A stretch of DNA of 48,139 bases, from positions 1 through 48,139 of the forward strand of contig PBDJ01000042.1 in the NCBI GenBank assembly GCA_002717365.1, in the 5' to 3' direction. Positions 24,192 through 46,771 of this stretch are shown piece by piece (position 1 is the stretch's first letter; each line of letters opens with the position of its first letter). Below the pieces are notes generated by a model. The model was not told the origin of the DNA. It made no database searches and worked only from the letters and a program-made list of their open reading frames with translations. Both the position numbers and the translations under genes were made by a program. This stretch comes from Acidimicrobiaceae bacterium (GTDB lineage Bacteria; Actinomycetota; Acidimicrobiia; Acidimicrobiales; MedAcidi-G1).

Positions 24192-24202
24192 CCGGACCGA
24201 CT

Positions 24203-25307: not shown

Positions 25308-25404
25308 CGCTTTGACCTGCGGTTATGCGGGTCTTGTTGGTTTGCGTATTGGGCTGTGCTCGCCAGTTGGCCCTTGGTTTCCCCTTTTCATCGGTTCCGT
25401 ACTC

Positions 25405-26625
25405 TCACACCGTCTCACATGTCTCAAGGATTGCCAGCAGATAGATACGGACCGCGTCCAGATAGTCGGGAATGTCGACACGCTCGTCCGGCATCGTGTT
25501 GTATCGGCCGCCGGGGCCGCAGACCACCCCTTCCATGCTGAGGCGCTGGGAGAAGTGGGCTGCATCGGTACCGAAGAATGCGGCTGGTGGGATGGCTCCA
25601 GTCGGCTGACTCTGACCGCGTACCTGTGCGTATGCGGCGTTGACAGCCCGCACGATCGGCGAATCTTGGTCGACCTCGAACGGTGACATACGTGGCCTGT
25701 CATCGCCTTGCAGTGGATAGACCGTGCTCTCGAGCCCTGGAAACTCCGCCTCAAGCCGGTCAAGTTCGGCCCTCAGATCAGCGAACACGCTGTCCTCGCT
25801 CTGTGATGGCGCATAGCGGGCGGAGCCGGCCAACCTGACGAAGTCGGCGACCTGCGGCGCACGCCAGTCATGGAAGTCCCGCGACAGGGCACCGCGCAAG
25901 ACCCCGATGTTGGCCCGGTTCACCGAACGGTGTTCGGCTGATCCGGCACCGCTGAACGTGATGCCATTCAGTCGTGGTACCAGGGCGCAGGCGGCGGCGA
26001 TCGCGTCCACCGCCTCCTCCCGTTTTGACATATGTCGGGTGGTCCCTTCCAACTCGATGACAAAGTGCAGAGAGCCGGCGTGCAGAGTCACTGCCCCTAG
26101 GTCGGTGGGCTCGCAGTTGATGAAATAGTCCGCCCGCACACCCTGTTCGATGGCTCTCACCGTGCCTATACCACCCTGCAGCTCGCCGACTACGTAGGTC
26201 AGGATCAGGTCGCCTTTGAGCCGGACTCCCGCCTCGATCAGGGTGCGGGCGGCACAGAAGTAGGCGGCGCAGCCCGCTTTCATGTTGGACACACCGATGC
26301 CGTAGATGAACCGGTCGTCGACGACACCACCCAACGGATCGACGGTCCAGCCTTCGGTCACCGGGTTGGTGTCAAGATGACCATTGAAAAGAAGGCTCTT
26401 GCCACCACCTAACCCCGGTAATCGACCGATTGCGTTGACGCGGTCTCCGGATACCGGTTGCAATTCACTGCTCAAGCCCAGTTCAGTCATGGCGTCGTGC
26501 ATGAAAATCGCCAGTTCGCGCTCGCCAACCGTCTCGGGATAGCTCTTGTGCCGAACCATGGATGCCAGAAAGTTCAGGCATGCCCGATCGTCCACTAGGT
26601 CCAACAACTCCGATGGGTTCATCAT
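25405..26625 (-). CDS. M20-family hydrolase homologue with altered metal site (first copy)
   Basis: The 406-residue protein has the ArgE/DapE/CPG2 (M20) fold. FNGHLDTNP keeps H83 and D85, and GELQGGIGT keeps the catalytic Glu E148. Three metal ligands are changed. The bridging Asp of the usual DMKGG is Asn (N114 in SNMKAG), the second Glu of the EE pair is Leu (L149), and the late His before PDE is missing (NTMPDE). It may therefore bind one metal, or none in the usual way, and its reaction cannot be assumed to be amide hydrolysis. It is divergent from a paralogue with the same changes at 26840. It is the first gene after the tRNA. Confidence 0.8.
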   Translation of the reverse strand: MMNPSELLDLVDDRACLNFLASMVRHKSYPETVGERELAIFMHDAMTELGLSSELQPVSGDRVNAIGRLPGLGGGKSLLFNGHLDTNPVTEGWTVDPLGGVVDDRFIYGIGVSNMKAGCAAYFCAARTLIEAGVRLKGDLILTYVVGELQGGIGTVRAIEQGVRADYFINCEPTDLGAVTLHAGSLHFVIELEGTTRHMSKREEAVDAIAAACALVPRLNGITFSGAGSAEHRSVNRANIGVLRGALSRDFHDWRAPQVADFVRLAGSARYAPSQSEDSVFADLRAELDRLEAEFPGLESTVYPLQGDDRPRMSPFEVDQDSPIVRAVNAAYAQVRGQSQPTGAIPPAAFFGTDAAHFSQRLSMEGVVCGPGGRYNTMPDERVDIPDYLDAVRIYLLAILETCETV

Positions 26626-26812
26626 TCGCTTCCAGTCATAATTCGAGTGCCAAGGGCTCCAATTGCGCTCAAACTCGTCCCATCGTGATCATGCCATCCT
26701 GAGTAGTCAGCCGCGGTCACTTCGAATTTGTGTTCGGCTGGCCTTCGACTGGAGATAACCATCTATCGACAAAGGGTCGAACGATCTGGCTCGAGATCAG
26801 TTCTGAGGCGTC

Positions 26813-26832
26813 GAGACTCTGACTACAGTCTC
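26813..26832. promoter_or_regulatory. Inverted repeat just upstream of the second M20 gene
   Basis: GAGACT-N8-AGTCTC is a perfect 6+6 inverted repeat that ends seven bases before the ATG at 26840. No Shine-Dalgarno is visible between it and the start. It may be an operator over a leaderless promoter. Confidence 0.35.
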
Positions 26833-26839
26833 CCTCCGT

Positions 26840-28069
26840 ATGACTGAACTGCTACCGGAAATCGATCGGACACGGTTACTCGATCTGGCGAGCGAGTTAA
26901 TCAGAATCCCGAGTTTCGTTCCGAACGAATCGGACGTCGCCTTCTATCTGCGCGATTTCTTCACCGACCGGGGATATGACGTCCTAATGCAAGAAGTGGA
27001 GCCCGGAAGGTTCCAGACCATCGCCACCCTCCCCGGAGCCGGCTCGGGGCGCAGTCTCATGTTCAACGGACATCTCGATATCAACTCGCTGATGATCGGC
27101 GGAACTCGGGACCCTTGGACGCCGACCGTCGAGGGCGATCGACTGTACGGCCACGGCATCCAGAACATGAAGGGCGGAGTAGCCACGATGATCGAGGCGG
27201 CCGAGTCGATTCGTCTAGCAGGGATCGAACTCCAAGGAGACCTCGTCTTGGCCTGTGTCGTCGGGGAGACTCAGGGAGGCGTGGGGAGCAACCATCTAAT
27301 GGAAAGCGGATTCCGTACCGATGCTGCGATTCTCACCGAGCCGTTCGGACTGGGCAAGATCGTCACCGTCCACGGCGGCATCATGCACTTTGCGATCCAC
27401 ACACACGGTTTGTCTGCCCACATAAGCAGGGCCCAAGACACCGTAAACGCTGTGGTGCAGATGACCAAGGTCGTCGAGGCACTCCAACACGTGGAGTTTA
27501 CTTACGTGCCGAGGGAGGACTTGCCGGCACTTCCACTCATCAACGTTGGCAGCATCATCGGAGGTCGGGGACAGGGTTATGTCTTGACCGAGCCGCCGTA
27601 CATACCGGATCTGTGCACAATCATCGTCGACGTTCATCATGCGCCCGGTCAGACCGCCGAGACTGTGGAGGCTGACATCAGGAAGGTGCTGGACGCGCTC
27701 GCCGCCGAGGACACCGATTTCAAGTATGAGTTCGAGATGCCACCTCCAGAGTTCTTCCAGGGGCGCCGGGAGTTGGTGATGGAGCCCGTCGATATCCCTG
27801 TGGACGAGCCGATCGTGTTGTCGGTTGCGTACAATCACGAACACGTGACTGGTAAATCCCCAGATGTCATTGGCGCAGCCCTGCCGATGTCGTATTCGGC
27901 TGGGGACACCTGCTGGTTGTGGGGAGCTGGAATTCCGTCGCTGCATTACGGCCCAGCGGGAGGCTTTGAGGAGACGGGTCCGGAAGGGGCATATATCAGT
28001 GTCTCCGAAATGGTGACCATCGCCGAGGTGTTGGCACTGACCGCGATGGATTTCTGCGGTACGGCCTAG
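26840..28069 (+). CDS. M20-family hydrolase homologue with altered metal site (second copy)
   Basis: A 409-residue paralogue of the protein at 25405-26625. FNGHLDIN keeps H78 and D80, and GETQGGVGS keeps E143. The bridging Asp is again Asn (N109 in QNMKGG), the second Glu is Thr (T144), and the C-terminal segment (HYGPAGGFEETGPEG) has no His before a PDE-like motif. The dimerisation-domain His is kept in GLSAHIS. That both copies share the same losses suggests a subfamily with its own chemistry rather than decay. It is followed after ten bases by the DUF6282 amidohydrolase, likely co-transcribed. Confidence 0.8.
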   Translation: MTELLPEIDRTRLLDLASELIRIPSFVPNESDVAFYLRDFFTDRGYDVLMQEVEPGRFQTIATLPGAGSGRSLMFNGHLDINSLMIGGTRDPWTPTVEGDRLYGHGIQNMKGGVATMIEAAESIRLAGIELQGDLVLACVVGETQGGVGSNHLMESGFRTDAAILTEPFGLGKIVTVHGGIMHFAIHTHGLSAHISRAQDTVNAVVQMTKVVEALQHVEFTYVPREDLPALPLINVGSIIGGRGQGYVLTEPPYIPDLCTIIVDVHHAPGQTAETVEADIRKVLDALAAEDTDFKYEFEMPPPEFFQGRRELVMEPVDIPVDEPIVLSVAYNHEHVTGKSPDVIGAALPMSYSAGDTCWLWGAGIPSLHYGPAGGFEETGPEGAYISVSEMVTIAEVLALTAMDFCGTA

Positions 28070-28079
28070 GGTCTCCTCG

Positions 28080-28985
28080 ATGACCGACCTAGTTTCCGGG
28101 GCGATTGACCTCCACGTCCATTGCGGACCTGAGGGGATACCCCGACGCTACGACCCTGTCTCTCTAGCAGCGCATCTAGGAGAGTCTCCACTCGACAGCG
28201 CGGTCATGAAGTCCCATGTGATCAACACGAGCAACTGGGCCGAGATCGCGCATCGGGCCACCGGCGTCCACTTGTATGGGTCGATCGTCCTCAACCACTA
28301 TGTCGGCGGCATCAATCCGATGGCGGTGCGCGGTGCCCTCGGGCCGAGCCATGATGGCGACCCATATCTCAAGGTCGTGTGGCTCCCAACGGTCCACGCC
28401 AACTCCCACGTCTCGGCGTACAAGGAGAAGGGTGAAACGTACGACATTCCCCCCGAGTGGAGCGGAGGGATCGTTTCCCCGCTTGCAATACCGATCGACG
28501 ATGTCGAACCGATCGATCTTCAGGCACCGGCCGTGCGCGGGCCGCTCGACGAGGTCCTGCAGCTCATTGCGCAGTATGGCCTGACCCTGGCGACTGGCCA
28601 TGTCGGGCGAGACGAGGTCTTCTCGGTAGTCGAGCAAGCTACTGATCGCGGCATCGAGCGAATCGTCATCACACACCCCACCATCCACCCCCCGGGATTG
28701 GCAGTTGCGGACCTTGAACTTCTCGCAGGTATGGGTGCGTTCATCGAGCTGTGTTACATAGGGCTGACCCATGGAGACAATGCGGCGGCGATGACAGACC
28801 TCATCAACCGGATCGGCGCCTCGCGTATCGTTCTCTCGACTGATCTGGGTCAGTTGCACACGGTTCCGCCAGCGGAAGGTTTGGCACTGTTTGCTACGGA
28901 GTTAGTGGACTCGGGAGTTTCTCCGAACGACGTCAGGATGGCGCTCTACGACAATCCACGCTGGCTGCTTTCGCTCTCGAAGTGA
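28080..28985 (+). CDS. DUF6282-type amidohydrolase-fold protein
   Basis: The 301-residue TIM-barrel metal-dependent hydrolase homologue has metal-site candidates in DLHVHCGPE (HxH on strand 1), the lysine in MKSHV, the His in TGHVGRDE, THPTIHP, and the Asp in LSTDLGQ. The layout fits the amidohydrolase superfamily, and this family (DUF6282) has no assigned substrate to my knowledge. It lies ten bases after an M20 paralogue and upstream of the ABC importer genes. A role in hydrolysing a cyclic or linear amide taken up by that importer is an inference. Confidence 0.7.
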   Translation: MTDLVSGAIDLHVHCGPEGIPRRYDPVSLAAHLGESPLDSAVMKSHVINTSNWAEIAHRATGVHLYGSIVLNHYVGGINPMAVRGALGPSHDGDPYLKVVWLPTVHANSHVSAYKEKGETYDIPPEWSGGIVSPLAIPIDDVEPIDLQAPAVRGPLDEVLQLIAQYGLTLATGHVGRDEVFSVVEQATDRGIERIVITHPTIHPPGLAVADLELLAGMGAFIELCYIGLTHGDNAAAMTDLINRIGASRIVLSTDLGQLHTVPPAEGLALFATELVDSGVSPNDVRMALYDNPRWLLSLSK

Positions 28986-29087
28986 GCGGTTCGATTTGGT
29001 CCTGCCGTCATAGTAGATATTTTGCAAAGTTCTTATAGAAAGCTCTAGCCTCGTCGGCTTGCAGATTTGATCCCCGGAGTTGAAACC

Positions 29088-29975
29088 TTGTCAGAGCAAC
29101 GAGATACCTCCTCATACCCGGAATCGGCTTTCTCTAGTGAATCCGGTTCGACAGAAGGGTCTCACGGATCAAACGCGCTCGAGGTGGTTGGTCTTAGTAA
29201 GACCTTCCGTTGGAAAAAGAAGGGCGTAGATCAAGAGCTGTTGGCAATCGACTCGCTCGATTTGAGTATTTCAAAGGGAGATTTTGTCACCGTCATCGGT
29301 CCGAGTGGCTGTGGAAAGACCACGCTACTTCGGATCGTCGCAGGCCTTATCGGCTACGACAGCGGTGAGGTGCGCATTAACGGAGAGGTCGTCACCGGAC
29401 CCGGGCAGGATCGTGCCGTCGTCTTTCAGAGTTTTGGGCTGTTTCCTTGGAAGACAGTACTAGCGAACACCATGCTGCCGTTGACCGTGCGCAGCGACGT
29501 CTCCAGCGAAGAAGCTGAGGATTCGGCTCGACTCAATCTGAAGAAAGTCGGGCTCTCGGGTTTCGAGGACGCCCATCCCCACCAACTGTCCGGTGGGATG
29601 CAGCAGCGAGTCGGCCTTGCTCGAGCGTTGACTGCGGATCCTGACATCTTGCTCATGGACGAACCGTTCGGCTCGATTGATGCCCAAACTCGACTGGTCA
29701 TGCAGGAAGAACTGCTCAGGATTTGGTCCGAAACTCGCAAAACCGTGATGTTCGTGACTCATGATCTCGACGAGGCCGTGATGCTGGCCGATCGTGTCGC
29801 TGTTCTATCGCCGGGTCCTGGAAAGGTGCAGGACGAACTCATAGTGGATCTGCCTCGGCCGAGATGGGAATACGACCTACGGGCTCATCCGCGCTTTGCG
29901 GAAATCCGTGCCACGGTGTGGGACCTCATCAGGCAAGACACCGTCAGCCTGCCCCCATCGGCAGAAGACACATGA
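29088..29975 (+). CDS. ABC importer ATPase, SsuB/TauB/NrtD-like
   Basis: The 295-residue ATPase has Walker A GPSGCGKTT, the Q-loop FQSFGLFPWKT, the signature LSGGMQQRVG, Walker B ILLMDEPFGSID and the H-loop MFVTHDLDEA. FGLFPWKTV is typical of the nitrate/sulfonate/taurine group. An N-terminal extension of about 30 Ser-rich residues precedes the domain. I start at TTG 29088 with GGAG eight bases before it; another TTG at 29067 is possible. It overlaps the first permease by ATGA. It energises import of a small anion or nitrogenous solute. Confidence 0.9.
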   Translation: MSEQRDTSSYPESAFSSESGSTEGSHGSNALEVVGLSKTFRWKKKGVDQELLAIDSLDLSISKGDFVTVIGPSGCGKTTLLRIVAGLIGYDSGEVRINGEVVTGPGQDRAVVFQSFGLFPWKTVLANTMLPLTVRSDVSSEEAEDSARLNLKKVGLSGFEDAHPHQLSGGMQQRVGLARALTADPDILLMDEPFGSIDAQTRLVMQEELLRIWSETRKTVMFVTHDLDEAVMLADRVAVLSPGPGKVQDELIVDLPRPRWEYDLRAHPRFAEIRATVWDLIRQDTVSLPPSAEDT

Positions 29976-30754
29976 AACGCGGGTCATTGCTCTCGGGCAA
30001 GATATGGCCCCTGCACGTCCTGTTTGCGGCGGGTGTGGTCGTAATTTGGCAACTACTGGTGTTACACGCTGGGAACGAGGTGCTCTTCCCGAACCTCGAC
30101 AGCGTTGGTGCGGCGTTGTGGGATCTCACCTCGAGCGGCAAGTTGCATTCTGCAATGCTGGAGAGCCTGCGACTCCTGTTTACTGGATTCACATTCGCGT
30201 TCGTCGGGGCCTTTTTCCTGGGCGTCATCATGGGATCCAGCAAAGCGATCGGCATGGCGCTATTGCCGCTCATGAGTTTTATTTACTGCGTTCCACTGAT
30301 CGCACTTCTACCACTCCTGCTGATGTGGTTCGGGTTCGGCTTCACCGGCAGGATGGTCGTTGTTGCCTATTCCTCGTTCTTTCCCGTTCTGCTCAATGTC
30401 TATGCAGGGGTGCGCGAGACACCGTCTGATCTCGTGGAGGTGGCTCAGTCGATCGGCCTCACGGGGAGGCTGGCGCAGTTCCGCCATGTAGTGCTGCCGA
30501 GTTCGGTCCCGTTCGTCATGGCTGGTTTTCGGCTCGGGATTGGGCGAGCCGTCGTCGGGATGGCGATTGCCGAAGTCTTCTTGCGGCTCGGTGGAATCGG
30601 AGCACTCATTGTGGAAAACGGAGCGAGATTCAGGACGGCGTATGTGATTGCCGCGATTGTTCCGCTCCCGCTATTGGGGATCGCTCTGACCAAGGCGGCG
30701 GCGCGTTTCGAGCAGCGAGTTCAATATTGGCGATACACGGCGGTCTCTGAATGA
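29972..30754 (+). CDS. ABC importer permease, SsuC-like (first)
   Basis: The 260-residue permease has about six transmembrane segments and the EAA loop for docking the ATPase (LVEVAQSIGLTGRLAQFRHV, ending in a VVLP block). I start at ATG 29972, overlapping the ATPase stop; the frame further upstream only shadows the ATPase gene. A second permease of the same family lies beyond the binding protein. The two may form a heterodimer with the single ATPase, whereas SsuC-type systems usually need one permease gene. Confidence 0.9.
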   Translation: MKRGSLLSGKIWPLHVLFAAGVVVIWQLLVLHAGNEVLFPNLDSVGAALWDLTSSGKLHSAMLESLRLLFTGFTFAFVGAFFLGVIMGSSKAIGMALLPLMSFIYCVPLIALLPLLLMWFGFGFTGRMVVVAYSSFFPVLLNVYAGVRETPSDLVEVAQSIGLTGRLAQFRHVVLPSSVPFVMAGFRLGIGRAVVGMAIAEVFLRLGGIGALIVENGARFRTAYVIAAIVPLPLLGIALTKAAARFEQRVQYWRYTAVSE

Positions 30755-30953
30755 ACGCGACAGTTAGCCGTTCGAGCCTATGGATGTTTTATTTGGAACC
30801 ATATGACCCATGGGGCCGCTGGCATTTGGATCAAAGCCCAGAACTACTCGAAGAGTTGGCGGTTTAGTTACCGACCGCTGATCTTGACAAGATAGGTCTC
30901 TTGAACCGACAGTTAGAGAGAAATCCGACAACAACAAAAGGGGTTCACACGCC

Positions 30954-32063
30954 ATGAGACGTGTAACGAAGGTGTTGGCATTAGCACTGACACTCTCAAT
31001 GGTCGCCGCCGCTTGCGGTAGCGACGACGAAGAAGCTGCTCCGGCGACGACGGTAGCTCCGGCGACGACGGCTGCTCCGGCGACGACGGCTGCTCCTGCA
31101 CCTGCAGAAACGGGTGCAGAAAAGAGTGCGACGAATCCGCTTGGCCTGGATCTGAGTGGGAAGTCTGTGACTGTGACGACCGGGCTTCCTGACTCGTTGT
31201 CAGGTGTGGAGTTCTTCATGTTGGATCGGTTGGCCGAATGGGGCCTTTCGATCGATCAGGTCGTCCTAACCCAGACAACTGGCTTGGAGACACTTCTGGC
31301 AGGTGCTGCTGATATCAGCACCGGTGCGGCCGACGAGTCTCTGATGGGTCTGGCCCAGGGCGCTGATCCGGTGATCATCGGATCGATGGAGTCCAAGATC
31401 AATTACGTGCTCGTTGCCAAGAAGGAGCACAAGACGATCGAGGACCTTCGTGACGGGGTTGTTGGCATATCTGGACCGGGTGGCTTCAACACGCTGCTCA
31501 GCAACATGGCGGTGCGCAGCGCGGGACTCGAGCCGGGAGTCGACGTCGAGTTGCAGCAGATCGGCGGAAGCCCCGAACGGGCGGCAGCCCTGCTGGCAGG
31601 GCAAGTCGACGCAGCGTCGGTCTTCCTCTCTGATGCCCTAGAACTTGAGGCAGCCAGCGACGATCTGCATGTGCTGGCACGGTATGCCGACATCATCCCC
31701 GAGCCGGGCAGTTCGACCTGGTTCTCGGTCGGTGGTTTCTGGGCGGCGAACCCGGACATCGCACTGGCGTGGGCGTGCGCGAACCTTCAGGGGAACCTCT
31801 GGGCGAATGAGAACCGGAGTGATTACATCGAGATGATCTTGGACAGGGTCGAGGGAACAACCCGAGGACCGACCGAGAACATGTATGACGAAGCGGTCAA
31901 GGTTGACATGTGGCCACGCCATCCGAGTGACATCGTCAGGACGGAGTACCTGGAGAACCTCAACGGCATGCTCGTGAGCACAGGCGACCTCGAAGCAGAG
32001 GTTGATGTGACCGGTGTGGTCGATTCGAGCTATCTGGAAGCTGCCCACGCCCATGGTTGCTGA
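30954..32063 (+). CDS. ABC importer substrate-binding lipoprotein, NMT1/SsuA-like
   Basis: The 369-residue protein has a lipoprotein signal peptide with lipobox VAAAC (C21), a flexible Ala/Pro/Thr linker made from an 18-base tandem repeat, and then a periplasmic-binding domain of the NMT1/SsuA/TauA type (VTTGLPDS, DISTGAADESL, GGFNTLLSNM, VDAASVFLSDA). It captures the solute for the two permeases. The ligand cannot be read. The family includes binders of sulfonates, nitrate, thiamine pyrimidine precursors, purines and other aromatic amides. About 200 bases of A/T-rich DNA precede it, so it likely has its own promoter. A hairpin follows. Confidence 0.88.
   Translation: MRRVTKVLALALTLSMVAAACGSDDEEAAPATTVAPATTAAPATTAAPAPAETGAEKSATNPLGLDLSGKSVTVTTGLPDSLSGVEFFMLDRLAEWGLSIDQVVLTQTTGLETLLAGAADISTGAADESLMGLAQGADPVIIGSMESKINYVLVAKKEHKTIEDLRDGVVGISGPGGFNTLLSNMAVRSAGLEPGVDVELQQIGGSPERAAALLAGQVDAASVFLSDALELEAASDDLHVLARYADIIPEPGSSTWFSVGGFWAANPDIALAWACANLQGNLWANENRSDYIEMILDRVEGTTRGPTENMYDEAVKVDMWPRHPSDIVRTEYLENLNGMLVSTGDLEAEVDVTGVVDSSYLEAAHAHGC
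31038..31091 (+). repeat. Three tandem 18-base repeats in the lipoprotein linker
   Basis: GCTCCGGCGACGACGGTA is followed by two GCTCCGGCGACGACGGCT units, encoding APATTV/APATTA repeats. Such linkers tether the binding domain to its lipid anchor, and their length can vary between strains by slippage. Confidence 0.85.
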
Positions 32064-32087
32064 CGCAGCTGGATAAAAAGATGGATT

Positions 32088-32133
32088 AGAGGAAGCCGCC
32101 GACCGGTCTAATACCCGGTCGGCGGCATCCTCT
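32088..32133 (+). terminator. Strong hairpin between binding protein and second permease
   Basis: A 12-bp perfect stem GCCGCCGACCGG/CCGGTCGGCGGC with an 8-base loop is extended, after one mismatch, by AGAGGA/TCCTCT. It is followed by TCTAACG rather than a long T-run. It can act as a partial terminator or mRNA stabiliser, giving more binding protein than downstream permease. Confidence 0.7.
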
Positions 32134-32153
32134 TCTAACGAGAAGCACCCCCT

Positions 32154-33041
32154 ATGACGTCCTCACGCCTCGCACCGAGCGGAAAATCTAAAGGTCCAAA
32201 GTCCTCGGGTTCCAAGCCGATCGGCAGGCGCTTTTCTTTCCGAAGGCTGCTACAGCCGGAGTTCTATCTGCCGGTCGTTGTGACTGGAGTGTTTCTCGGG
32301 GCTTGGGAGTGGCTCGGTACGATCACGGACCCGATTCTCTTCGCCCCTCCGTCGAGGATCGCGGAAGCGGCTGTGGTGTTGATTCGTGATGGTGTTCCCG
32401 CATTTGGATCTAAACGCCTCGTCACTCTTCAATCGTTGACCTGGACCACCCTCAACGGGCTCTTGGTTGGCTTTGCGATCTCGATCATCACTGGATTACT
32501 CATCGGAGTGCTGCTTGGGCGCCATAAGACTCTGGCGCGGGTTGCAGAGCCCTACGTTGACGCCATCTACGCCACACCACGAGTCGTCCTGACCCCCCTG
32601 ATCGTGCTGTGGTTCGGGCTTGGGTACAACGCCCGGCTATTCCTCGTGTGGCTCGGCGCGACTATTCCGATCATCATCAACACCGCCATCGGAATTCGTA
32701 ATGCTCGACCTGATCTCGAAGAAGTTGGACACTCCGTCGGGATGAGTGAGCGTCAGTTGCTTCGCCATGTGATCATGCCGGGCGCCGTACCGTATGTGCT
32801 GGCAGGGCTTCGCGTCGCAGCTGGACGGGCGATGATCGGCATAGTCATCGGAGAGATGTTTTTAAATCTGGTTGGACTCGGCGGATTCATCAGATTCGAG
32901 GGGGCGCGACTCCGCACCGCCAACGCGTTTGTGGCAGTGATGGTGCTCGGCATCATGGGGTCGGTATTGATCTCGTCCCTCGGGTTGCTCGAATCCAAGT
33001 TCGCCTCGTGGAAGAAAGAAGAACGTTCTCGGGAAACGTAG
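32154..33041 (+). CDS. ABC importer permease, SsuC-like (second)
   Basis: The 295-residue permease has a basic, Ser/Lys-rich N-terminal tail of about 35 residues, six or so transmembrane segments, and the EAA loop LEEVGHSVGMSERQLLRHVIMPG. It belongs to the same family as the permease at 29972-30754 but is clearly diverged from it. It lies behind the hairpin after the binding-protein gene, so its expression should be lower unless it has its own promoter. With the ATPase, first permease and binding protein it completes a five-domain importer. Confidence 0.88.
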   Translation: MTSSRLAPSGKSKGPKSSGSKPIGRRFSFRRLLQPEFYLPVVVTGVFLGAWEWLGTITDPILFAPPSRIAEAAVVLIRDGVPAFGSKRLVTLQSLTWTTLNGLLVGFAISIITGLLIGVLLGRHKTLARVAEPYVDAIYATPRVVLTPLIVLWFGLGYNARLFLVWLGATIPIIINTAIGIRNARPDLEEVGHSVGMSERQLLRHVIMPGAVPYVLAGLRVAAGRAMIGIVIGEMFLNLVGLGGFIRFEGARLRTANAFVAVMVLGIMGSVLISSLGLLESKFASWKKEERSRET

Positions 33042-33176
33042 ATTCAGCACGGGTGGCATGAAGCACGGTTTTCCACGCTCATCACGTCGACTCGCTCCCG
33101 GCCAGTGGTGAGTCAACTCGCCGACGCTCCCAACGTGACGGTTACGGCATTCCTTCCCATGGAAGTCTTCGTGTGA

Positions 33177-34157: not shown

Positions 34158-34161
34158 ACGA

Positions 34162-36683: not shown

Positions 36684-36710
36684 CAGACCATGACTGTAAT
36701 CCTAGGTCTG
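36684..36710. promoter_or_regulatory. Inverted repeat in the 357-bp spacer after the ureohydrolase start
   Basis: CAGACC-N15-GGTCTG lies between the divergent ureohydrolase and CMD genes. The rest of the spacer (36590-36946) has no credible gene. It holds this repeat and a 21-base tandem duplication near the CMD start. An operator or a hairpin leader is possible. Confidence 0.3.
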
Positions 36711-36882
36711 GCCGGTGATCAAGATGGACGGCCGTGTGCGCACTGAGCAACTCGTTCGATCCCGTTGCCTGATGACAAGATCCCTGGTAGGAACGTCCGG
36801 AGCTTCGATCGGGTCCCTTGACTCGGTTTACTACTGACGTTCTGGTGGTCCTTGGGCCTTGATGGCCATAATGGCTCTGTAG

Positions 36883-36924
36883 ACACACCTGTAAGAAACG
36901 CTGACACACCTGTAAGAAACGCTG
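36883..36924 (+). repeat. Perfect 21-base tandem duplication upstream of the CMD gene
   Basis: The unit GACACACCTGTAAGAAACGCT occurs twice, head to tail and without mismatch, ending 22 bases before the ATG at 36947. Its position suggests a duplicated regulator site or a slippage product in the leader. Confidence 0.8.
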
Positions 36925-36946
36925 ACTATCCGATCGAGGAGGCACC

Positions 36947-37483: not shown

Positions 37484-37639
37484 CCCATCGGTTGTAGGTA
37501 AGTGCACCTGGTGATGTCCACTGGCGGGTCCGCATCCATCGAGTGGTCCAGCACACGATCACAGTTGGTGACGCTCCAACTGAGACCAGACTTCCCGGGC
37601 CAGCCATGAACCGAACCAAGCGCCCGGCGACCCGACCCC

Positions 37640-38818: not shown

Positions 38819-38861
38819 CCGACCTGAAGAAGACGGGCGCAACCTTCTGACAACTACAGGT

Positions 38862-39842: not shown

Positions 39843-39844
39843 GA

Positions 39845-41359
39845 CTACTCGACCTCCACAAAGTAACTGTCAACAGCCGCATCGAGTTCGACCCGCGCAG
39901 CTTGGAGCCGTTGTGATGTTTCTTGATACCAGGTCCTGTGCTGGGCCTGAAGCCGCCGACCGTCGACCACCATGTCCCTCACACTCGCGGGATTCGCGCT
40001 TCCCTCAGTTACCAGCGCTTCGATGAACGCCCTGGCATCGAGAGACTCCCTCACCAGTTCTTCGGACAGACCCACGGATCTACCGATCGCCTCTTCAGCC
40101 GCTGCATCGACCATGGTTGCGGTCACCTCGGAAGGACCGACTCCTTGAGCGACGGCATTCCTGACCAACCGGCCGACGACGTGGTGAGCAGATCGGAACG
40201 GGATTCCTGCATAGCGGACGAGATTGTCGGCCAGGTTTGTGGCAGTCGTCCAGTTGACCTCGGCGCGCTGGGACATAATGTCGGTGCGATAGGCGCTCGT
40301 TATCAATGACTCTCTCATGAGCTCTACGACCGCCAGGGTCGGATCGATCATCTCCAACGCCGGATCAGGGGCAAACACCAGTTCAAGATCCGAGGAAGAA
40401 GCCGAGCGTTGCGCCCCGAGTACCTGCGACAGCCATCCGACGGCAACACCCGACAACCCTCGTATCCGCTCTATCGCGTCCGGGTTCTTTTTCTGCGGCA
40501 TGATGCTGCTCGTGTCTGCCATCTCATCGGCAACCTCGACAAGGCCGAACTCCCATGTCGACCAAACATAGAAATCGCCAGCCAGTCGCCCGACATCGTT
40601 CACAAGAATCGACAGCACCGCCGCGCTCTCCTGAGGATGGTCACGAGTGAAGACACCGGCGTCTGCTGAGTTCATCACAATGTCGCCGTGGCCCAGCAGG
40701 TGGGCGGCGCGCCGGCGATCGAGCGGCCAGGTCGTGCCTGAGCACGCAGCTCCGCCAAGCGAACTCAAGTTTGTCCGGTCGAAGGCGCCTTCCAGACGCT
40801 GCTGACTGCGCTCGAACGGATAGAAATGCCGCATGAAGTAGTGGCCCAGCGTTGTCGGCTGAGCATGCTGGAGGTGGGTGTACCCAGGCATCAGGGAGTC
40901 ATGATGTTCATCAGCCAGGTCGAGCATTTCGTCCTGCAGTCGCAGCGTGGCCTCCACCACATTCAGCAAGCCATCGCGCATGTGGATCCGGTTGGCAGCC
41001 TCATGTTGGTCATTACGGCTGCGACCGGTGTGCATCCGGCCGGCTATGTCGTCGCCAATTCGTTCTTCCATGAACGCCTCGACTTGCAGGAGCAGTGAAC
41101 CCTTACGTGGGTCAAGGGGAAGCTCACCAGGCCCCAGACCCTCGACGTCCCTCAACGCCCCCAGAATCGGACCTGCCTGCGTCCTATCGAGCACACCCTG
41201 TTCTGCCAACATGACCGTATGCGCCATGTCCACCTGAATATAGGAGTGGAGTTGTAGCGCCTCTTTCGCCAGCCTGGTGGAAAGCGAGTATTCAACGTTC
41301 AGGTCATTAACCGTGTCGCCAAGGCGACCTGCCGAATATGAACCCTTCTCGGCGGCCAT
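39845..41359 (-). CDS. Argininosuccinate lyase-family C-N lyase, first copy
   Basis: This is a 504-residue member of the ASL/fumarase superfamily, whose enzymes split C-N bonds by beta-elimination, usually releasing fumarate. Conserved blocks: GRSRND (112-117), the catalytic His H162 in PGYTHLQH, and the signature loop DTSSIMPQKKNPD (S284/S285). Canonical ArgH has GSS where this has TSS, and is usually shorter (about 460-470 residues). It is therefore probably not ArgH but a lyase for another N-succinyl or dicarboxyethyl compound. It is head-to-head with a paralogue of identical length and coupled to an LLM gene downstream. Confidence 0.88.
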   Translation of the reverse strand: MAAEKGSYSAGRLGDTVNDLNVEYSLSTRLAKEALQLHSYIQVDMAHTVMLAEQGVLDRTQAGPILGALRDVEGLGPGELPLDPRKGSLLLQVEAFMEERIGDDIAGRMHTGRSRNDQHEAANRIHMRDGLLNVVEATLRLQDEMLDLADEHHDSLMPGYTHLQHAQPTTLGHYFMRHFYPFERSQQRLEGAFDRTNLSSLGGAACSGTTWPLDRRRAAHLLGHGDIVMNSADAGVFTRDHPQESAAVLSILVNDVGRLAGDFYVWSTWEFGLVEVADEMADTSSIMPQKKNPDAIERIRGLSGVAVGWLSQVLGAQRSASSSDLELVFAPDPALEMIDPTLAVVELMRESLITSAYRTDIMSQRAEVNWTTATNLADNLVRYAGIPFRSAHHVVGRLVRNAVAQGVGPSEVTATMVDAAAEEAIGRSVGLSEELVRESLDARAFIEALVTEGSANPASVRDMVVDGRRLQAQHRTWYQETSQRLQAARVELDAAVDSYFVEVE

Positions 41360-41472
41360 CAGAGCATCGTAATCTGTAGGAGGACGTCACTATCAAACGG
41401 GCCCCTGACTCGTGGATGCCTGCATACGACCTATGGGTAGTCTGACAAGAGGTCCCTCTCATTGGAGAACTG

Positions 41473-42987
41473 ATGACAGAAGGCTCCGCATTTACAACCG
41501 GAAGGCTTGGTAATTCTCGCAACGCCGTGAACGTCAAGTATGCGGTCGAGCCAAAGTTGCGGACGGAGATGGCGCTTCTGGACGCCTACACGCAGGTCGA
41601 CATGGCGCACACGGTCATGCTGTCCGAGCAGGGAGTGCTCGCGGACGATCAGACCCGTGGGATCCTTCGAGGGCTGAGAGAGATCGCCGGTCTGGATGAC
41701 GGAGAGTTGCCCGTGGATCCCGAGCGAGGCTCTGTGCTCCTCCAGGTAGAGCACTTCCTCGCCGAGAGAATTGGCCATGACATGGCCGGTCGGATGCACA
41801 CCGGCAGGAGTCGGAATGACCATCAAGAAGCCGCCAACCGGCTGCTCGTCAGGGACCGCCTGCTTGACGTAGCCGATGCGACACTGCGTCTGCAGGACAC
41901 GGTTCTCGACCTAGCGCTCGAACACGCCGATGCCTTGATGCCCGGCTATACCCATCTTCAGCACGCTCAACCAACAACCCTTGGTCACTACATTATGCGG
42001 CACTATTACCCGTTCGAGCGTGACCAACAGCGCCTTCAAGGAGCTTTCAAGCGTACGAATCTCAACGCTCTGGGCGGCGCGGCGTGCGTGGGAACGACCT
42101 GGCCTGTCGATCGCCGTCGTACCGCCGAGCTCTTGGGCCACGGAGGCCTCGTGGTCCACGCCACGGACGCCGGGGTCTTCGCCCGTGACTATCCGGCGGA
42201 GAACGCCGCGATGTTGTCGATTCTGGTCAACGATGTCGGGCGGCTCGCCGGAGATCTCTACGTATGGTCAACGTGGGAATTCGGCATGGTCGAGGTCGAG
42301 GACGGTATGGCGAACACCAGCAGTATCATGCCGCAGAAGAAGAATCCAGAGGCCCTCGAGCGCGTCAGAGGCTTGTCTGGCATTGCTGTCGGATGGCTAC
42401 CAGCTGTTCTTGGAGCTCTGCGCTCTGCCACCTCCTCGGACCTCGAACTCGCCTTCGGCCCCGACCCGACTCAGGACATGATCGATTCGACCATCGCAGT
42501 CGTGGAACTGACCCGCGAGAGCCTTGAGACGACAACGTTCAATACCGACGTGATGCGCGACCGCGCAGAAGTGAACTGGACCACCGCAACGAACTTGGCG
42601 GACGAACTGGTCAGAAGCTCGGGACTCTCGTTCCGAGCAGCGCACCAGGTCGTAGGCCGGCTTGTCAGAAACGCTGTTTCTGAAGGTATAGCTCCGGACG
42701 ACGTGACCAGCAAGATGGTTGTGAGTGCAGCCGACGAAGTGGGTATTGTCGCTGACATTTCCCAGGAGAACGTCGACAACTCGCTCGATCCCACGGCCTT
42801 TCTGCAGTCGCTTACGACGGTAGGGAGTGCCAACCCGACCGAGGTGCGGAGGATGGTTGCTGAAGGGCATGACCTGCAGGCCACTCACCGCGGTTGGCTC
42901 GACGAGACGGTCGCCCGCCTGGCAACAGCTCGACAGGAACTCACGGCGGCAGTAGATAGACACCTGTCCGGGATCGGTGAGAAATGA
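41473..42987 (+). CDS. Argininosuccinate lyase-family C-N lyase, second copy
   Basis: A 504-residue paralogue of the protein at 39845-41359. It keeps GRSRND, the catalytic His in PGYTHLQHAQP, and NTSSIMPQKKNPE in the signature loop, again with Thr in place of Gly. The two proteins align without evident gaps by eye and are probably more than half identical. They face away from each other across 113 bases. It is followed after ten bases by the cyclic amidohydrolase, so ring opening and C-N lysis may be consecutive steps. The substrate is unknown. Confidence 0.88.
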   Translation: MTEGSAFTTGRLGNSRNAVNVKYAVEPKLRTEMALLDAYTQVDMAHTVMLSEQGVLADDQTRGILRGLREIAGLDDGELPVDPERGSVLLQVEHFLAERIGHDMAGRMHTGRSRNDHQEAANRLLVRDRLLDVADATLRLQDTVLDLALEHADALMPGYTHLQHAQPTTLGHYIMRHYYPFERDQQRLQGAFKRTNLNALGGAACVGTTWPVDRRRTAELLGHGGLVVHATDAGVFARDYPAENAAMLSILVNDVGRLAGDLYVWSTWEFGMVEVEDGMANTSSIMPQKKNPEALERVRGLSGIAVGWLPAVLGALRSATSSDLELAFGPDPTQDMIDSTIAVVELTRESLETTTFNTDVMRDRAEVNWTTATNLADELVRSSGLSFRAAHQVVGRLVRNAVSEGIAPDDVTSKMVVSAADEVGIVADISQENVDNSLDPTAFLQSLTTVGSANPTEVRRMVAEGHDLQATHRGWLDETVARLATARQELTAAVDRHLSGIGEK

Positions 42988-42997
42988 GGAGAGGGAC

Positions 42998-44377
42998 ATG
43001 AACAGGCGATTCGACACCATCGTACGGGGCGGACACCTCGTCCTTCCCGATCGTGTCTTTCCGGGAACCATCGGGATACGCGATGGCGTGATTGCGGCAA
43101 TCGGAGACGATGACAGCGACTTTCCAGCCGACGAATTCATCGATGGCACCGATTGCCTCATCCTGCCAGGAGTTGTGGACATGCATGTTCACTTTCGAGA
43201 CCCCGGCCTCACCGACAAGGAGGACTTCTCGACAGGGAGCACGGCGGCTGCGGTCGGCGGAGTGACAACCGTCGGGGACATGCCTAACAACAAGCCTCCG
43301 ATCACCACAAGTGAGCGATTCGTTGCAAAGCGTGACGACGTTGCGGAGAAGGCCCATGTCGATTACGTGCTTTGGGCCGGCGGGGTTCATCCTGATGAGA
43401 TGCCGGGAATGGCCGCTGCCGGAGCGATCGGGTTCAAGGTCTACATGAACAAGTTCGAACGTCCGGACGGAGCGGAGTGGACGGGCAAGGAATCGCCATT
43501 AGCTCCCGAGCTCTACATGGACGACGATGCCCGCCTGCTGGACGTCTTCAAGACTGCAGCCGATCTCGCACTCCCAGTAGCCGTGCATTTGGGCAATCAG
43601 GCCTTCGTCCGCAGGGTCATGTTTCCCTGGGCGAACAAGCCCTTTGCGGACGTCGCACCCGCCCTGCAAGCGTTGTCGCCGATGGAATTCATGGAAGCGG
43701 CACAAAAGTGTGTTCTGTTTGCCGAGCGAACTGGCGCCCATCTCCACTTCGTTCATGCACCCGCCGAAGTCCTATCGATCGTCCGAACAGCCAAGACTTC
43801 AGGGCTCAATGTGACGGTCGAATCCCTTTGCCCTTTCATGACATTCGACCTCATGGACGAGTTGGGGCCACTCGGCTTCAATCGATACCGGTCACCAGAA
43901 GCTGTTGCCCTTCTTTGGCAGGGAATGCGCGACGGGCTCATCGATGCGGTAGCGACCGACCACGCACCTCATGAGTGGGAAGAGAAGCAGCAAGGATTTG
44001 TCGACGTGCTTAGTTGCCCATCGGGATATCCCGAAGTGCAGACTTCGTTCGCCATGATGTTCGACGAGGTGAGCAAAGGGACGATCACTATCCAACAACT
44101 AGTGCGCCTGATGGCGGCGGGCCCAGCCCAGGTGCTAGGGATCCAGGACAGAAAGGGTTCGATCGAGCTAGGGAAAGACGCCGATTTCGTTGTAGTCAAC
44201 CCAGAGTCCGAGTGGACGATTACCAATGAGCAGCAGAAGTCAAAATGTGGCTGGACGCCATTCGACGGTCGAAAGGTTCGTGGGCGCCCAGTTCTCACCT
44301 TGCTCCGCGGCGAGGTAATTGCCCGAGACGGCGAACTAGAGAGCGAGAACCGCGGCCATCTAATCGGTGTGACGTAG
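42998..44377 (+). CDS. Allantoinase/dihydroorotase-like cyclic amidohydrolase
   Basis: The 459-residue amidohydrolase-superfamily enzyme opens cyclic amides or ureides. The binuclear metal site is complete: HVHFRDPG (H63, H65), the lysine to be carboxylated K147 (GFKVYMN), H197 (AVHLGN), the His in LHFVHAP, and the Asp in ATDHAPHEW. GLTDKEDFSTGS and GVTTVGDMPN are close to allantoinase. Allantoinase, dihydroorotase and hydantoinase cannot be separated with confidence. No purine-degradation set (urate oxidase, allantoate hydrolase in order) is nearby. I start at ATG 42998 behind GGAGAGGG. It follows the second C-N lyase by ten bases. Confidence 0.85.
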   Translation: MNRRFDTIVRGGHLVLPDRVFPGTIGIRDGVIAAIGDDDSDFPADEFIDGTDCLILPGVVDMHVHFRDPGLTDKEDFSTGSTAAAVGGVTTVGDMPNNKPPITTSERFVAKRDDVAEKAHVDYVLWAGGVHPDEMPGMAAAGAIGFKVYMNKFERPDGAEWTGKESPLAPELYMDDDARLLDVFKTAADLALPVAVHLGNQAFVRRVMFPWANKPFADVAPALQALSPMEFMEAAQKCVLFAERTGAHLHFVHAPAEVLSIVRTAKTSGLNVTVESLCPFMTFDLMDELGPLGFNRYRSPEAVALLWQGMRDGLIDAVATDHAPHEWEEKQQGFVDVLSCPSGYPEVQTSFAMMFDEVSKGTITIQQLVRLMAAGPAQVLGIQDRKGSIELGKDADFVVVNPESEWTITNEQQKSKCGWTPFDGRKVRGRPVLTLLRGEVIARDGELESENRGHLIGVT

Positions 44378-44391
44378 TCCCCCCGTCGAAG

Positions 44392-45276
44392 TCAGGCTTC
44401 CGGGCCGTTGAACTCGTCGAAAACTCTTCTCGAGAGTGCGGCGAGCGCCGCGTTCACCTCGATCCGGTCTCCCCGGGCGCCGTTGGCCATCAGGGCAATG
44501 GCGTAGGGCCCATGCCTGGAGTAGACGATTCCAACGTCGCACGAAACCAATTCGAATTGGCCGGTCTTGTGCGCACAGACCGTGCCGGCCGGCAGGCGGT
44601 GTGGAATCACCGTGCGCAGTTGCTGTCCTTTGTGGATGTCCAGAAACGTTCTTTTTGACTCGCAGGAAAGCACTTCGTTGTTGTGTATTCGCCGAAACAG
44701 CCGACACATATCTGCAGGTGTGGAGATGTTTCCCTCCGACGAGTACGCACGAGATTCGAAGTCGTACTCACGGTTTAGGAGCCGCTCCATGGATAGGTCA
44801 AAGGCAACCGGTCCCATCGACGCATCGAGACCTACGATCCCGAGGAGCATCTCCTTGGGACTGAGAGGGATCCGTGTGCGAGTCAGTCCGAGACGGTCGA
44901 TAGTGTGCTGAATCCGGTCGTGTCCGACGACATCAAACAACATCTGCGAGGCGGTGTTGTCGCTGATCGTGATCATCAGCACCGCCAGATCGCCAATCGA
45001 GACCTCTGTATCGGATCTCATCAATTTGAGGACACCCGAACCGGCTACACGTTTCGTAGCTGTGAAAGTGATCCGGTCATCGAGCGAGAGCTTCTGGACG
45101 TCGACCATTTCGAGCAGGCTGACCAGAAGGATCGACTTGAACGTGCTCGCCGTCAGAAGCGGATGGTCTGAGTTATAGGCAACCTGCTCGCCGGTTTCTA
45201 GATGGACAGCGCTCACTCCCAGAACACCGGTAAACGTCTTGGCGAAGGACGTGAGGTCTTTCGCGGGACAAGCCAC
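44392..45276 (-). CDS. Class A beta-lactamase-fold serine hydrolase without signal peptide
   Basis: The 294-residue protein of the penicillin-recognising serine enzyme fold has S44-x-x-K47 (TASTFKS), S105-D-N107 (ISDNTAS) and a later KTG (AHKTGQF). The omega-loop Glu of class A beta-lactamases is not obvious. The start is taken at GTG 45276, eight bases after the LLM stop; upstream frame overlaps that gene. With this start no signal peptide precedes the domain, so the enzyme is probably cytoplasmic and not a drug-resistance beta-lactamase. Its place in a C-N cleavage island suggests an amidase or esterase. Coupled to the third LLM gene. Confidence 0.72.
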   Translation of the reverse strand: MACPAKDLTSFAKTFTGVLGVSAVHLETGEQVAYNSDHPLLTASTFKSILLVSLLEMVDVQKLSLDDRITFTATKRVAGSGVLKLMRSDTEVSIGDLAVLMITISDNTASQMLFDVVGHDRIQHTIDRLGLTRTRIPLSPKEMLLGIVGLDASMGPVAFDLSMERLLNREYDFESRAYSSEGNISTPADMCRLFRRIHNNEVLSCESKRTFLDIHKGQQLRTVIPHRLPAGTVCAHKTGQFELVSCDVGIVYSRHGPYAIALMANGARGDRIEVNAALAALSRRVFDEFNGPEA

Positions 45277-45283
45277 AGGCCCG

Positions 45284-46255
45284 TTAGGGGTTGGCACGTC
45301 GAATTTCGGGCATGACCTTTTCGGCGAGGAGGCGAACTGACTCGGTCTCTGGATAATCGCTGCACCATGGGTAGAAAGCCGTGCAACCAAGGTCGATATA
45401 GGTCTGCATCTTTTCTGCGACCTGCTCAGGCGTTCCAACAAAGTTCCGGGAGCGCCATTCCTCAAACTCCACGCCTTGGACCGAGCGGCTTCCTCCGTCG
45501 ACAATCTCCTGTTCATCTTCTCGGAGGACGACCTCACCGCAGATTGTTTTCTGAATCTCGTCGTAGTCACGTCCCACATCACGACAGTGGCCCTGAAGCA
45601 CAGAGCACCTATGAGCGAACTCCTCGGGGGTTCCCCCAAAGTTCGAGGCATCGCCGAGGCGCGCTACCGCCCTGAGGGTCAGTTGCTCTCCTTTGCCCCC
45701 TATGAGGACCTGTGGTCTCGGTTGCTGCACGGGCTTTGGATCGCACTGACCACCCTGCATCGAGTAGAAGCGCCCCTCGTAGTTCACGTCTTGCTGGGAC
45801 CACATCGCTGTCACAATCTCGATCGCTTCTTCCATCATCTTGATGCGGTCCGCAGGACTCGCGAATCGATAGCCATATCCGGCGAATTCGTGCTCGTACC
45901 AACCAGCGCCAACACCCCAAATCAGACGACCATTGGACATCACGTCTAGGTTCGAGGTGATCTTGGCGGTGAGGCTGGGTTCCCGATACGGGGTACAGGT
46001 CACCATCTGACCAAGTTTGATTCGACTGGTGACTTGACTAATCGCTGCGAGGACAGTCCAGGAATCAAAAACCGTTTCATTGGCGGGATTGGGCCAGTTG
46101 TGGAAGTGGTCATAGACCCAGAGAGAATCCAGATTGAGTTCTTCGGCGTACTTGGCGACTTCCACTGACTTTGCCCACTTGTCGACAGGATCGGAGATTG
46201 GGAGCAAATCCATCTTCCATCCTTGAGGTATGAACACGCCGAAGTTGATCTCCAT
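45284..46255 (-). CDS. Luciferase-like (LLM) F420-type oxidoreductase, third
   Basis: The 323-residue luciferase-like protein is more distant from the other two. INFGVFIPQGWKMD opens the barrel, DSLWVYDHFHNWP and GRLIWGVGAGWYEHEF follow, and VGTPEQVAEKM is the usual C-terminal block of the F420-dependent group. ATG start at 46255. It is followed after seven bases by the serine hydrolase. It is thus the third LLM gene of the island closely linked to a hydrolase or lyase. The substrate is unknown. Confidence 0.88.
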   Translation of the reverse strand: MEINFGVFIPQGWKMDLLPISDPVDKWAKSVEVAKYAEELNLDSLWVYDHFHNWPNPANETVFDSWTVLAAISQVTSRIKLGQMVTCTPYREPSLTAKITSNLDVMSNGRLIWGVGAGWYEHEFAGYGYRFASPADRIKMMEEAIEIVTAMWSQQDVNYEGRFYSMQGGQCDPKPVQQPRPQVLIGGKGEQLTLRAVARLGDASNFGGTPEEFAHRCSVLQGHCRDVGRDYDEIQKTICGEVVLREDEQEIVDGGSRSVQGVEFEEWRSRNFVGTPEQVAEKMQTYIDLGCTAFYPWCSDYPETESVRLLAEKVMPEIRRANP

Positions 46256-46321
46256 CCGGACAGTTTGCCTGAAACGCGAACTCAGTTCTGAACTGCGCTT
46301 CCAAAATGGCCAATTAGACGC

Positions 46322-46627
46322 CTACAAAAGCAGGTTGGCACCAGTGTCCTGATTGACGATTTGGGCAGGTGGGTTGGCAACGAACTCTTGGCCCAAGGCG
46401 AGCCACTCCGAGTCGGAGGGCAATGCATCGACGAATGTGCCGTATCCAGCACCGTTCTCGAACTGGAGCACATAGGTCATTAGGTGTCCAGGTCCTGTGT
46501 TGTGGGCGATGAGTGCGACATTGGTTGCACCGAGGCGTTTGTGGATTTCAGCTCCTCGTCTACAGAAGCCGATGAAATCACCTTCGCGGCCTTGATGAAC
46601 TTCCCAGACGGTCCTTCCTACAAACAT
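46322..46627 (-). CDS. Small hypothetical protein, possible alpha-beta-barrel (NIPSNAP-like)
   Basis: The 101-residue protein is not firmly recognised. Alternating beta-like and helical stretches (MFVGRTVWEV, GDFIGFCRRGAEIHKRLG, MTYVLQFENGAGYGTFVDAL) recall dimeric ferredoxin-like barrels such as NIPSNAP or antibiotic-biosynthesis monooxygenase domains. Some of those bind haem or aid flavin enzymes, but no diagnostic residue is seen. It lies 66 bases upstream of the third LLM gene on the same strand and is probably co-transcribed. It is the last gene with island-type codon use. Confidence 0.6.
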   Translation of the reverse strand: MFVGRTVWEVHQGREGDFIGFCRRGAEIHKRLGATNVALIAHNTGPGHLMTYVLQFENGAGYGTFVDALPSDSEWLALGQEFVANPPAQIVNQDTGANLLL

Positions 46628-46771
46628 CGTCTCTCGGTGCCTTTCTGTTAGCTGGAGATCATCTTGATGGTGCCTTCGACTGTTTCCGATTGCAAACGGA
46701 TGCGCGCTGGGTCTGCGAATACGCCGCCACTGACCTGGTCCTGCGCGTATCTACACGTGGGGGCGACGCAG

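Follow-up and report, generated by a model that had tools for sequence, protein, structure and literature searches.

Islands at tRNA sites that carry catabolic cargo are a known kind of element. Luciferase-like (LLM) enzymes and a binding-protein importer take part in aminopolycarboxylate breakdown, and the selenium-linked anaerobic urate breakdown cluster is made up of YgeY, HyuA and YgeX, in which an M20 enzyme and a C-N lyase of another superfamily accompany a hydantoinase-type enzyme. The logic of a cyclic amidase with an M20 hydrolase is also found in ergothioneine utilisation (ErtD, a hydantoin-5-propionate amidohydrolase, and ErtE), and further points of comparison are the EDDS lyase of Chelativorans sp. 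BNC1, argininosuccinate lyase (argH) and the Pseudomonas ureohydrolases GbuA and GpuA. Here we analyse a 48,139-nucleotide stretch of DNA (the window), which is contig PBDJ01000042.1 of the Acidimicrobiaceae bacterium assembly GCA_002717365.1 (C16, one contig of a 1,869,266-base draft genome that is 77.8% complete). It carries, with very little doubt, a genomic island at the 3' end of a tRNA-Val gene, a site at which congeners hold different DNA. Sixteen genes of the island recur in a genome of another order. The best explanation that we can offer for them, although we hold it tentatively, is a horizontally spread cassette that takes up and degrades a guanidino, ureido or cyclic-ureide N-substituted dicarboxylate (an aspartate- or succinate-like acid).

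The initial annotation had described some 19 genes behind tRNA-Val as one accessory set for nitrogen-compound catabolism. All 19 were found at 25405-46627, in import, hydrolysis, redox and lyase families: one arginase-family ureohydrolase, one dihydroorotase/hydantoinase-type amidase, two Lyase_1/ASL_C2 proteins, three M20 proteins, one class A beta-lactamase-like protein, three LLM proteins, a four-gene ATP-binding cassette (ABC) importer, a major facilitator superfamily (MFS) transporter, a carboxymuconolactone decarboxylase-like protein, a DUF6282 protein and one small open reading frame (ORF) without a family. They do not form a single set, however: 16 make up the cassette, arranged in six runs over both strands, and the other three have no orthologue on the contig of the second carrier genome (G372, described below). 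The features are as follows, with percentages giving identity to G372.

25234..25308 (+), tRNA-Val(CAC), island left border; ARAGORN and Rfam; congener similarity stops at 25308-25353 in 12/12 loci
25405..26625 (-), M20 peptidase-like (ArgE/DapE group), on the island but outside the cassette; Pfam, NCBIfam; best match on the G372 contig 31%, to the other M20
26840..28069 (+), M20 peptidase-like (ArgE/DapE group), first cassette gene; best PDB match 5-nitroanthranilate aminohydrolase; 81%
28080..28985 (+), DUF6282 protein, amidohydrolase-like motif set; PF19799 E 8e-51; 77%
29067..29975 (+), ABC importer ATPase; listed NCBIfam models led by SaoA, taurine and nitrate importers, none of the three reaching its cut-off; orthologue in G372
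29972..30754 (+), ABC importer permease 1 (longest ORF from 29864); family scans; orthologue in G372
30954..32063 (+), substrate-binding lipoprotein, NMT1/SsuA-like; family scans; orthologue in G372
32154..33041 (+), ABC importer permease 2; family scans; orthologue in G372
33177..34178 (-), LLM oxidoreductase 1; TIGR03619 above cut-off; orthologue in G372
34162..35517 (-), M20 amidohydrolase, exceeding the TIGR01891 cut-off by a small margin; PDB relatives HmrA and Xaa-Arg dipeptidase; orthologue in G372
35624..36589 (-), ureohydrolase; guanidino-acid hydrolase PDB relatives; above NCBIfam agmatinase cut-off; 91%
36947..37483 (+), carboxymuconolactone decarboxylase-like protein; family scan; orthologue in G372
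37640..38818 (+), MFS transporter; family scans; orthologue in G372
38862..39842 (-), LLM oxidoreductase 2; family scans; orthologue in G372
39845..41359 (-), C-N lyase 1, argininosuccinate/EDDS-lyase superfamily; family and PDB matches; 89%
41473..42987 (+), C-N lyase 2, 66% identical to lyase 1; family and PDB matches; 84%
42977..44377 (+), cyclic amidase, dihydroorotase/hydantoinase/allantoinase family; family and PDB matches; 79%
44392..45276 (-), class A beta-lactamase-like serine hydrolase, last cassette gene; SxxK, SDN, KTG; 77% across ORF residues 133-414
45284..46255 (-), LLM oxidoreductase 3, outside the cassette; TIGR03560 above cut-off
46322..46627 (-), small protein; no match in Pfam or NCBIfam
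46772..47881 (-), DUF1214 protein; 79-93% relatives in 5/16 congeners, a fragment in a sixth
25309..48139 (no strand), island portion on this contig; probably runs on into contig C2, to C2:28668

The left border of the island is established by comparison with congeners. The D-Ala ligase gene of the left part of the window is present in 15 of 16 congeners; its tRNA side was retrieved for 14, and 12 of these pieces contain tRNA-Val. At every one of the 12 loci similarity to the window ends at the tRNA 3' end or no more than 45 bases past it. Two congeners (G001 and G008) have an empty site, in which nucleotide synteny of 89-90% on the left ends at 25308/25309 and a block of backbone follows the tRNA directly. 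The same block lies approximately 2.0, 2.5, 3.3, 5.5 and 10.8 kb downstream in G004, G014, G002, G011 and G003, with other DNA intervening, and was not seen in the remaining five congener pieces with tRNA-Val. Ten ORFs behind the tRNA in six congeners match gamma-glutamyltranspeptidase, P450, lipase, ABC, Bmp and GmrSD_C/Excalibur families or nothing, and none of the ten is an integrase. In G010 (locus L050) two partial copies of the tRNA-Val 3' end, 93-95% identical, lie 2.6 and 3.1 kb downstream, which points to repeated insertions, and G014 has a 34-base partial copy of the tRNA end downstream. The differing DNA and the partial tRNA-end copies together show the site to be an insertion hot spot.

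The right border likely lies on another contig of the same genome, C2, in which the backbone block occupies positions 22963-28667 (89% identity). Contig C2 ends at 30363 and its final 480 bases are window positions 47652-48130 reversed, at 92.5% identity. Because of this overlap the two contigs are very likely neighbours, and the island would measure about 24 kb, an estimate summed across C16 and C2. Directly before the backbone on C2, 26 of 33 bases match the tRNA end. The highest score of any other 33-mer is 18 on this stretch of C2 and 21 in the window, with both strands read and the tRNA places excluded, and 50 shuffles reach 20. This junction sequence is a decayed terminal repeat of the tRNA end. 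A second copy of the tRNA end was sought inside the window and not found.

Base composition agrees with an insertion. GC content is 0.61-0.68 until 26 kb, 0.55-0.61 at 26-47 kb and 0.63 at 47-48 kb, and mean GC content at third codon positions (GC3) falls from 0.750 in 13 chosen left genes to 0.677 in the 16 cassette genes (Mann-Whitney p = 2.5e-4). Among their synonymous codons, GCG and ACG have shares of 0.30 and 0.32 in the cassette of the window and of 0.35 and 0.36 in that of G372, as against 0.10 and 0.16 in the left genes. The left part of the window holds ordinary genes (aconitase, D-Ala ligase, Mur ligase-type and DnaJ-domain genes, and further genes that we take to be suf). A change of codon style right after tRNA-Val had been proposed; the change is real but begins further on, near 26.0 kb, since the first M20 gene (25405-26625), with a GC3 of 0.72, still lies within the left-gene range of 0.67-0.83. 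The proposal of a tRNA-linked accessory island is borne out by the compositional shift, the empty site in two congeners, the decayed repeat at the far junction and the absence of the lyase from all 16 congeners. What we found is thus the reverse of a region that is syntenic in all relatives and of even composition: synteny ends at tRNA-Val, and both GC and GC3 shift. Like other tRNA-site islands, the locus is inserted behind a tRNA gene, has empty counterparts in congeners, carries a terminal repeat and is of unusual composition, but its repeat is decayed and the scanned stretch has no integrase.

The second carrier is contig JAPPFW010000038.1 of the metagenome-assembled genome RHO1_bin_3 (G372:C24), from the same class but a different order. 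The prefix RHO1 may refer to the sponge Rhopaloeides odorabile, the subject of PMC8163846. It carries both lyases and all 16 genes from the second M20 gene (26840) to the beta-lactamase-like gene (45276), at 72.7-90.6% identity (median 80.5%). Three flank proteins, which we take to be SufS, SufC and SufD, are 53, 64 and 34% identical between the two genomes; an aconitase-family gene (12555-14903) was dropped as a yardstick, having no close orthologue in G372 (pieces of 32-41%). Synonymous divergence (dS) is 0.8-1.5 and the ratio of non-synonymous to synonymous divergence (dN/dS) is 0.04-0.18 across all 16 genes, which are therefore all under purifying selection. Identity far above that of the flank proteins, together with the dS values and low dN/dS, indicates that the cassette was shared horizontally, though not recently, and that each gene has been maintained. 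Relative to the rest of the cassette, the LLM1-lyase 1 block has opposite orientations in the two carriers, and in G372 this block includes two extra genes, Amidohydro_2 and a short-chain dehydrogenase (L006:4393-6188). The G372 contig stops 265 bases past the second M20 gene, leaving that border of the cassette open. Three island genes without orthologues on this contig (first M20, third LLM and small ORF) were rejected as cassette members.

Lyase searches point to a sparse distribution. No lyase was detected in any of the 16 congeners (E <= 1e-60), in any of the 60 relatives surveyed around the genome itself (one carrier among 61) or in any of 58 relatives of G372 (E <= 1e-75), which is the sole carrier among 59. 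Across the class, 2 of 395 genomes were carriers, the present genome and G372; a sample of 396 genomes from the phylum yielded only the present genome and a 37% relative in G477. In the class and phylum surveys three candidates per genome were scored after a loose first pass. Vertical inheritance of the cassette was ruled out by the absence of the lyase from relatives and by cassette identity much higher than that of the flank proteins. Its presence in another order suggests that the 16-gene kit passes from species to species in one piece. An IMG/VR search gave seven relatives at 26-37% identity.

Conservation as a unit bears on whether there is one pathway at all. The cassette could instead be a bundle of small nitrogen-scavenging modules (for guanidino acids, cyclic ureides, N-succinyl amino acids and peptides) that travel together, as the six gene runs on both strands and the inversion of the inner block between the two carriers might suggest. 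Plasmid relatives found with six query proteins (lyase 1, DUF6282, the cyclic amidase, two M20 proteins and the ureohydrolase) point the same way, in that the single-gene relatives examined have mostly unrelated neighbours; on a Paenarthrobacter plasmid, an M20 gene and ABC transporter genes lie near the ureohydrolase relative. Because both genomes retain the full set of 16 genes, all similarly diverged and all under purifying selection, we nonetheless regard a bundle as rather unlikely.

The proposal that the cassette degrades one guanidino or ureido dicarboxylate draws first on the two lyases. Their best solved relative is PDB entry 6g3d, deposited as an argininosuccinate lyase, which we take to be EDDS lyase. 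In agreement with this identity, PMC12363623 names entry 6G3H, which has the same sequence as 6g3d. The paper places R112, N113, Q159, N288, D290 and Y320 near the substrate (PMC12363623). Of these residues, Arg112, Asn113 and Asn288 are kept in both lyases and Asp290 in lyase 1, with Glu in lyase 2 (lyase 2 was aligned directly to 6g3d, and lyase 1 was read through a separate lyase alignment). Nearby LLM enzymes and a binding-protein importer extend the likeness to aminopolycarboxylate breakdown, but the cassette also encodes a ureohydrolase and a cyclic amidase, and the NtaA/DmoA model TIGR03860 scores the LLM proteins at only 27-73 against a cut-off of 280.

Both lyases also keep GRSRND, THLQ and SSIMPQKKNP, which appear to be succinyl-side motifs. 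They lack YNxDLQEDK, presumably the arginine-side motif of argininosuccinate lyase, which is present as YNKDLQEDK in the genome's own argH-like protein on contig C44. A role as spare argininosuccinate lyases was ruled out by the absence of this motif while the separate argH-like gene has it. Both nevertheless exceed the curated NCBIfam argH cut-off (332 and 337 against 279.5), and annotation pipelines would therefore call them argH. As the two paralogues are only 66% identical to each other and each is 84-89% identical to its own G372 orthologue, their duplication predates the split of the two cassette copies.

The ureohydrolase has the metal motifs GGDH, DAHxD and DxDxxD, and its PDB matches rank guanidinobutyrase (245 bits) and guanidinopropionase (237), the Pseudomonas GbuA and GpuA, above proclavaminate amidinohydrolase (225) and agmatinase (216). 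It is thus nearest to guanidino-acid hydrolases; against the subfamily model PRK02190 it scores 300.2 against 302. A human relative needs an acid group on its substrate and refuses agmatine, according to PMC9772407. At the Met161/Tyr157 place (Tyr157 of GpuA) the protein and its G372 orthologue have Tyr; among plasmid relatives the Arthrobacter protein has Tyr and the Paenarthrobacter protein Leu, and the residue of the third, from Rubrobacter, could not be read. Next to the Rubrobacter relative (50% identity) lie genes for an aminotransferase and for a semialdehyde dehydrogenase, a setting that would suit the use of beta-alanine. Unlike the GbuA/GpuA systems, the cassette has no aminotransferase or aldehyde dehydrogenase family in Pfam scans.

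The cyclic amidase carries HVHFRDPG and MPN, which include metal-site motifs and an Arg and an Asn that are shared with dihydroorotase, in which we take them to bind the carboxylate. The Arg place holds Asn or Ser in the aligned allantoinases and Ile in hydantoinase; the Asn place holds Leu in two of three allantoinases (a gap in the third) and Ile in hydantoinase. Over the whole sequence, PDB matches run from L-hydantoinase through allantoinases to dihydroorotases, and no NCBIfam cut-off was reached among the 25 models listed of 69, the nearest being pyrC_multi (273.7 against 279.05). A housekeeping dihydroorotase was ruled out, as the genome has relatives of 29-38% identity elsewhere, on contigs C7 and C22. 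The likeness to ergothioneine utilisation also stops at the arrangement, with ErtD (248 against 650) and ErtE (28 against 520) below their cut-offs, and the two ArgE/DapE-type M20 proteins score only 92 and 95 against 321 for YgeY of the urate cluster.

The remaining cassette proteins are less informative about the substrate. The closest PDB relatives are HmrA and Xaa-Arg dipeptidase for the M20 protein at 34162 and 5-nitroanthranilate aminohydrolase for the one at 26840. Both ArgE/DapE-type proteins (26840-28069 and 25405-26625) have GETQGG or GELQGG where a double Glu is the usual form of the family; ETQGG is also found in the G372 orthologue of the cassette protein, and the dinuclear metal site of both may be altered. 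The third M20 protein (34162-35517) has ACGHHCQ, conserved in G372, at a place where relatives usually have CGHD or CGHN. The DUF6282 protein has the motifs HxH, K, H, H and D, a set that we take to be amidohydrolase-like. The beta-lactamase-like protein scores 123 against a cut-off of 200 for NF033103, which is not reached. Its longest ORF (44392-45651, 419 amino acids) overlaps LLM3 by 368 bases; because similarity to G372 starts at residue 133, the ORF is probably over-called and the true start lies near 45276.

Taken together, the importer, hydrolases and lyases conserved as one unit in another order, and the families themselves, make the nitrogen-compound catabolism suggested at the outset probable, and the ureido-, guanidino- and N-succinyl-type substrates then named fit the enzyme families. 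We infer a guanidino- or ureido-type dicarboxylic acid because the ureohydrolase resembles guanidino-acid hydrolases, the amidase has the Arg and Asn of dihydroorotase and the lyases have succinyl-side but no arginine-side motifs. In the scheme that we envisage, the ABC importer would bring in the compound, the dihydroorotase-type amidase would open a carboxylated cyclic ureide or amidine, and the M20 enzymes would cleave amide or carbamoyl bonds. The ureohydrolase would then take urea off a guanidino acid, the twin lyases would eliminate fumarate from an N-substituted aspartate and free an amine, the LLM and DUF6282 enzymes would process what remains, and the MFS transporter would export something. 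This specific chemistry, a carboxylated guanidino or ureido compound with a succinyl-type half cut to urea, fumarate and an amine, is possible, and we put it forward a shade more cautiously than the general reading. If it holds, it would add a bacterial route for recovering nitrogen and fumarate from guanidino and ureido acids, and the automatic name of the lyase pair would be wrong. The fuller claim is doubtful at present: that a new catabolic pathway has passed from one order to another as a 16-gene unit, and that it opens cyclic guanidino- or ureido-succinates and cuts their N-substituted aspartates to fumarate with a new argH-named lyase pair. No description of a pathway with this gene set was found among the titles and abstract openings covered by a limited literature search. 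Because the cassette is small, has defined limits and recurs in a second genome, its substrate and enzymes are directly testable.

Several results weigh against this proposal. The EDDS lyase residues Gln159 and Tyr320 are not conserved (His here, and aligned with Asp), so comparison leaves the amine side unassigned. The ureohydrolase passes the NCBIfam agmatinase cut-off (TIGR01230, 227 against 174.3), and the Tyr that it has at the position of GpuA Tyr157 cannot serve as a diagnostic residue: PMC10833137 reports this place as substrate-recognising and finds Tyr also in a fungal enzyme that is 25x better on guanidinobutyrate. Structure models of the DUF6282 protein and the binding protein (mean predicted local distance difference test (pLDDT) scores of 46 and 35) are too poor to use, and no regulator family was seen in the cassette. 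Pfam and NCBIfam scans of 20 proteins (25.4-47.9 kb, with the C2 part outside the scan) gave no integrase or relaxase, and because the overlap of C16 and C2 is inexact the right border may mix strains. With the cassette known from two genomes only, its co-conservation rests on one comparison; carrier absences were established with lyase queries, and no second cassette copy was present in 12 plasmid neighbourhoods (two without annotation, six compared with all cassette proteins).

The direction of the lyase reaction could also be reversed. The cassette would then make and export a small N-substituted aspartate, a chelator or other metabolite, with the lyases adding an amine and the MFS transporter exporting the product. 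EDDS lyase adds many amines to fumarate, according to PMC12363623, and the MFS transporter, the beta-lactamase-like protein and the rank of proclavaminate amidinohydrolase as third PDB match of the ureohydrolase would all suit biosynthesis. We consider it unlikely, given that the first gene run encodes a complete ABC importer with its binding protein, that hydrolases of several kinds are present, and that Pfam scans showed no ligase, non-ribosomal peptide synthetase or polyketide synthase family among the 19 proteins. A sulfonate analogue as substrate, such as taurocyamine or an N-substituted cysteate, is very improbable. In its favour, the importer matches models for SaoA and for taurine, nitrate and sulfonate transport, XcbC of coenzyme M metabolism ranks second among the NCBIfam models for both lyases, and the human relative of guanidinobutyrase hydrolyses taurocyamine, according to PMC9772407; but the model scores lie below the cut-offs (XcbC 274 and 291 against 575; SsuA 45 against 163.5).

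Beyond the cassette, a few features of the window deserve mention. ARAGORN called a second tRNA-Val at 9883-9967, which overlaps two long ORFs, is unreported by Rfam and is probably false. DUF1214 relatives in congeners lie on contigs other than the D-Ala ligase contig. The start of a second DUF1214 gene, 92.5% identical to window positions 47652-48130, lies at the C2 end in the same genome and is a strain variant or a paralogue. A sequence of approximately 140 bases within 47935-48123 recurs behind tRNA-Val in congeners (L050, L055 and L056) and at the DUF1214 locus of G001, and is possibly a genus-wide repeat. The string TGTACGTATCTACAC near the right end of the window is common to L051 and L056.

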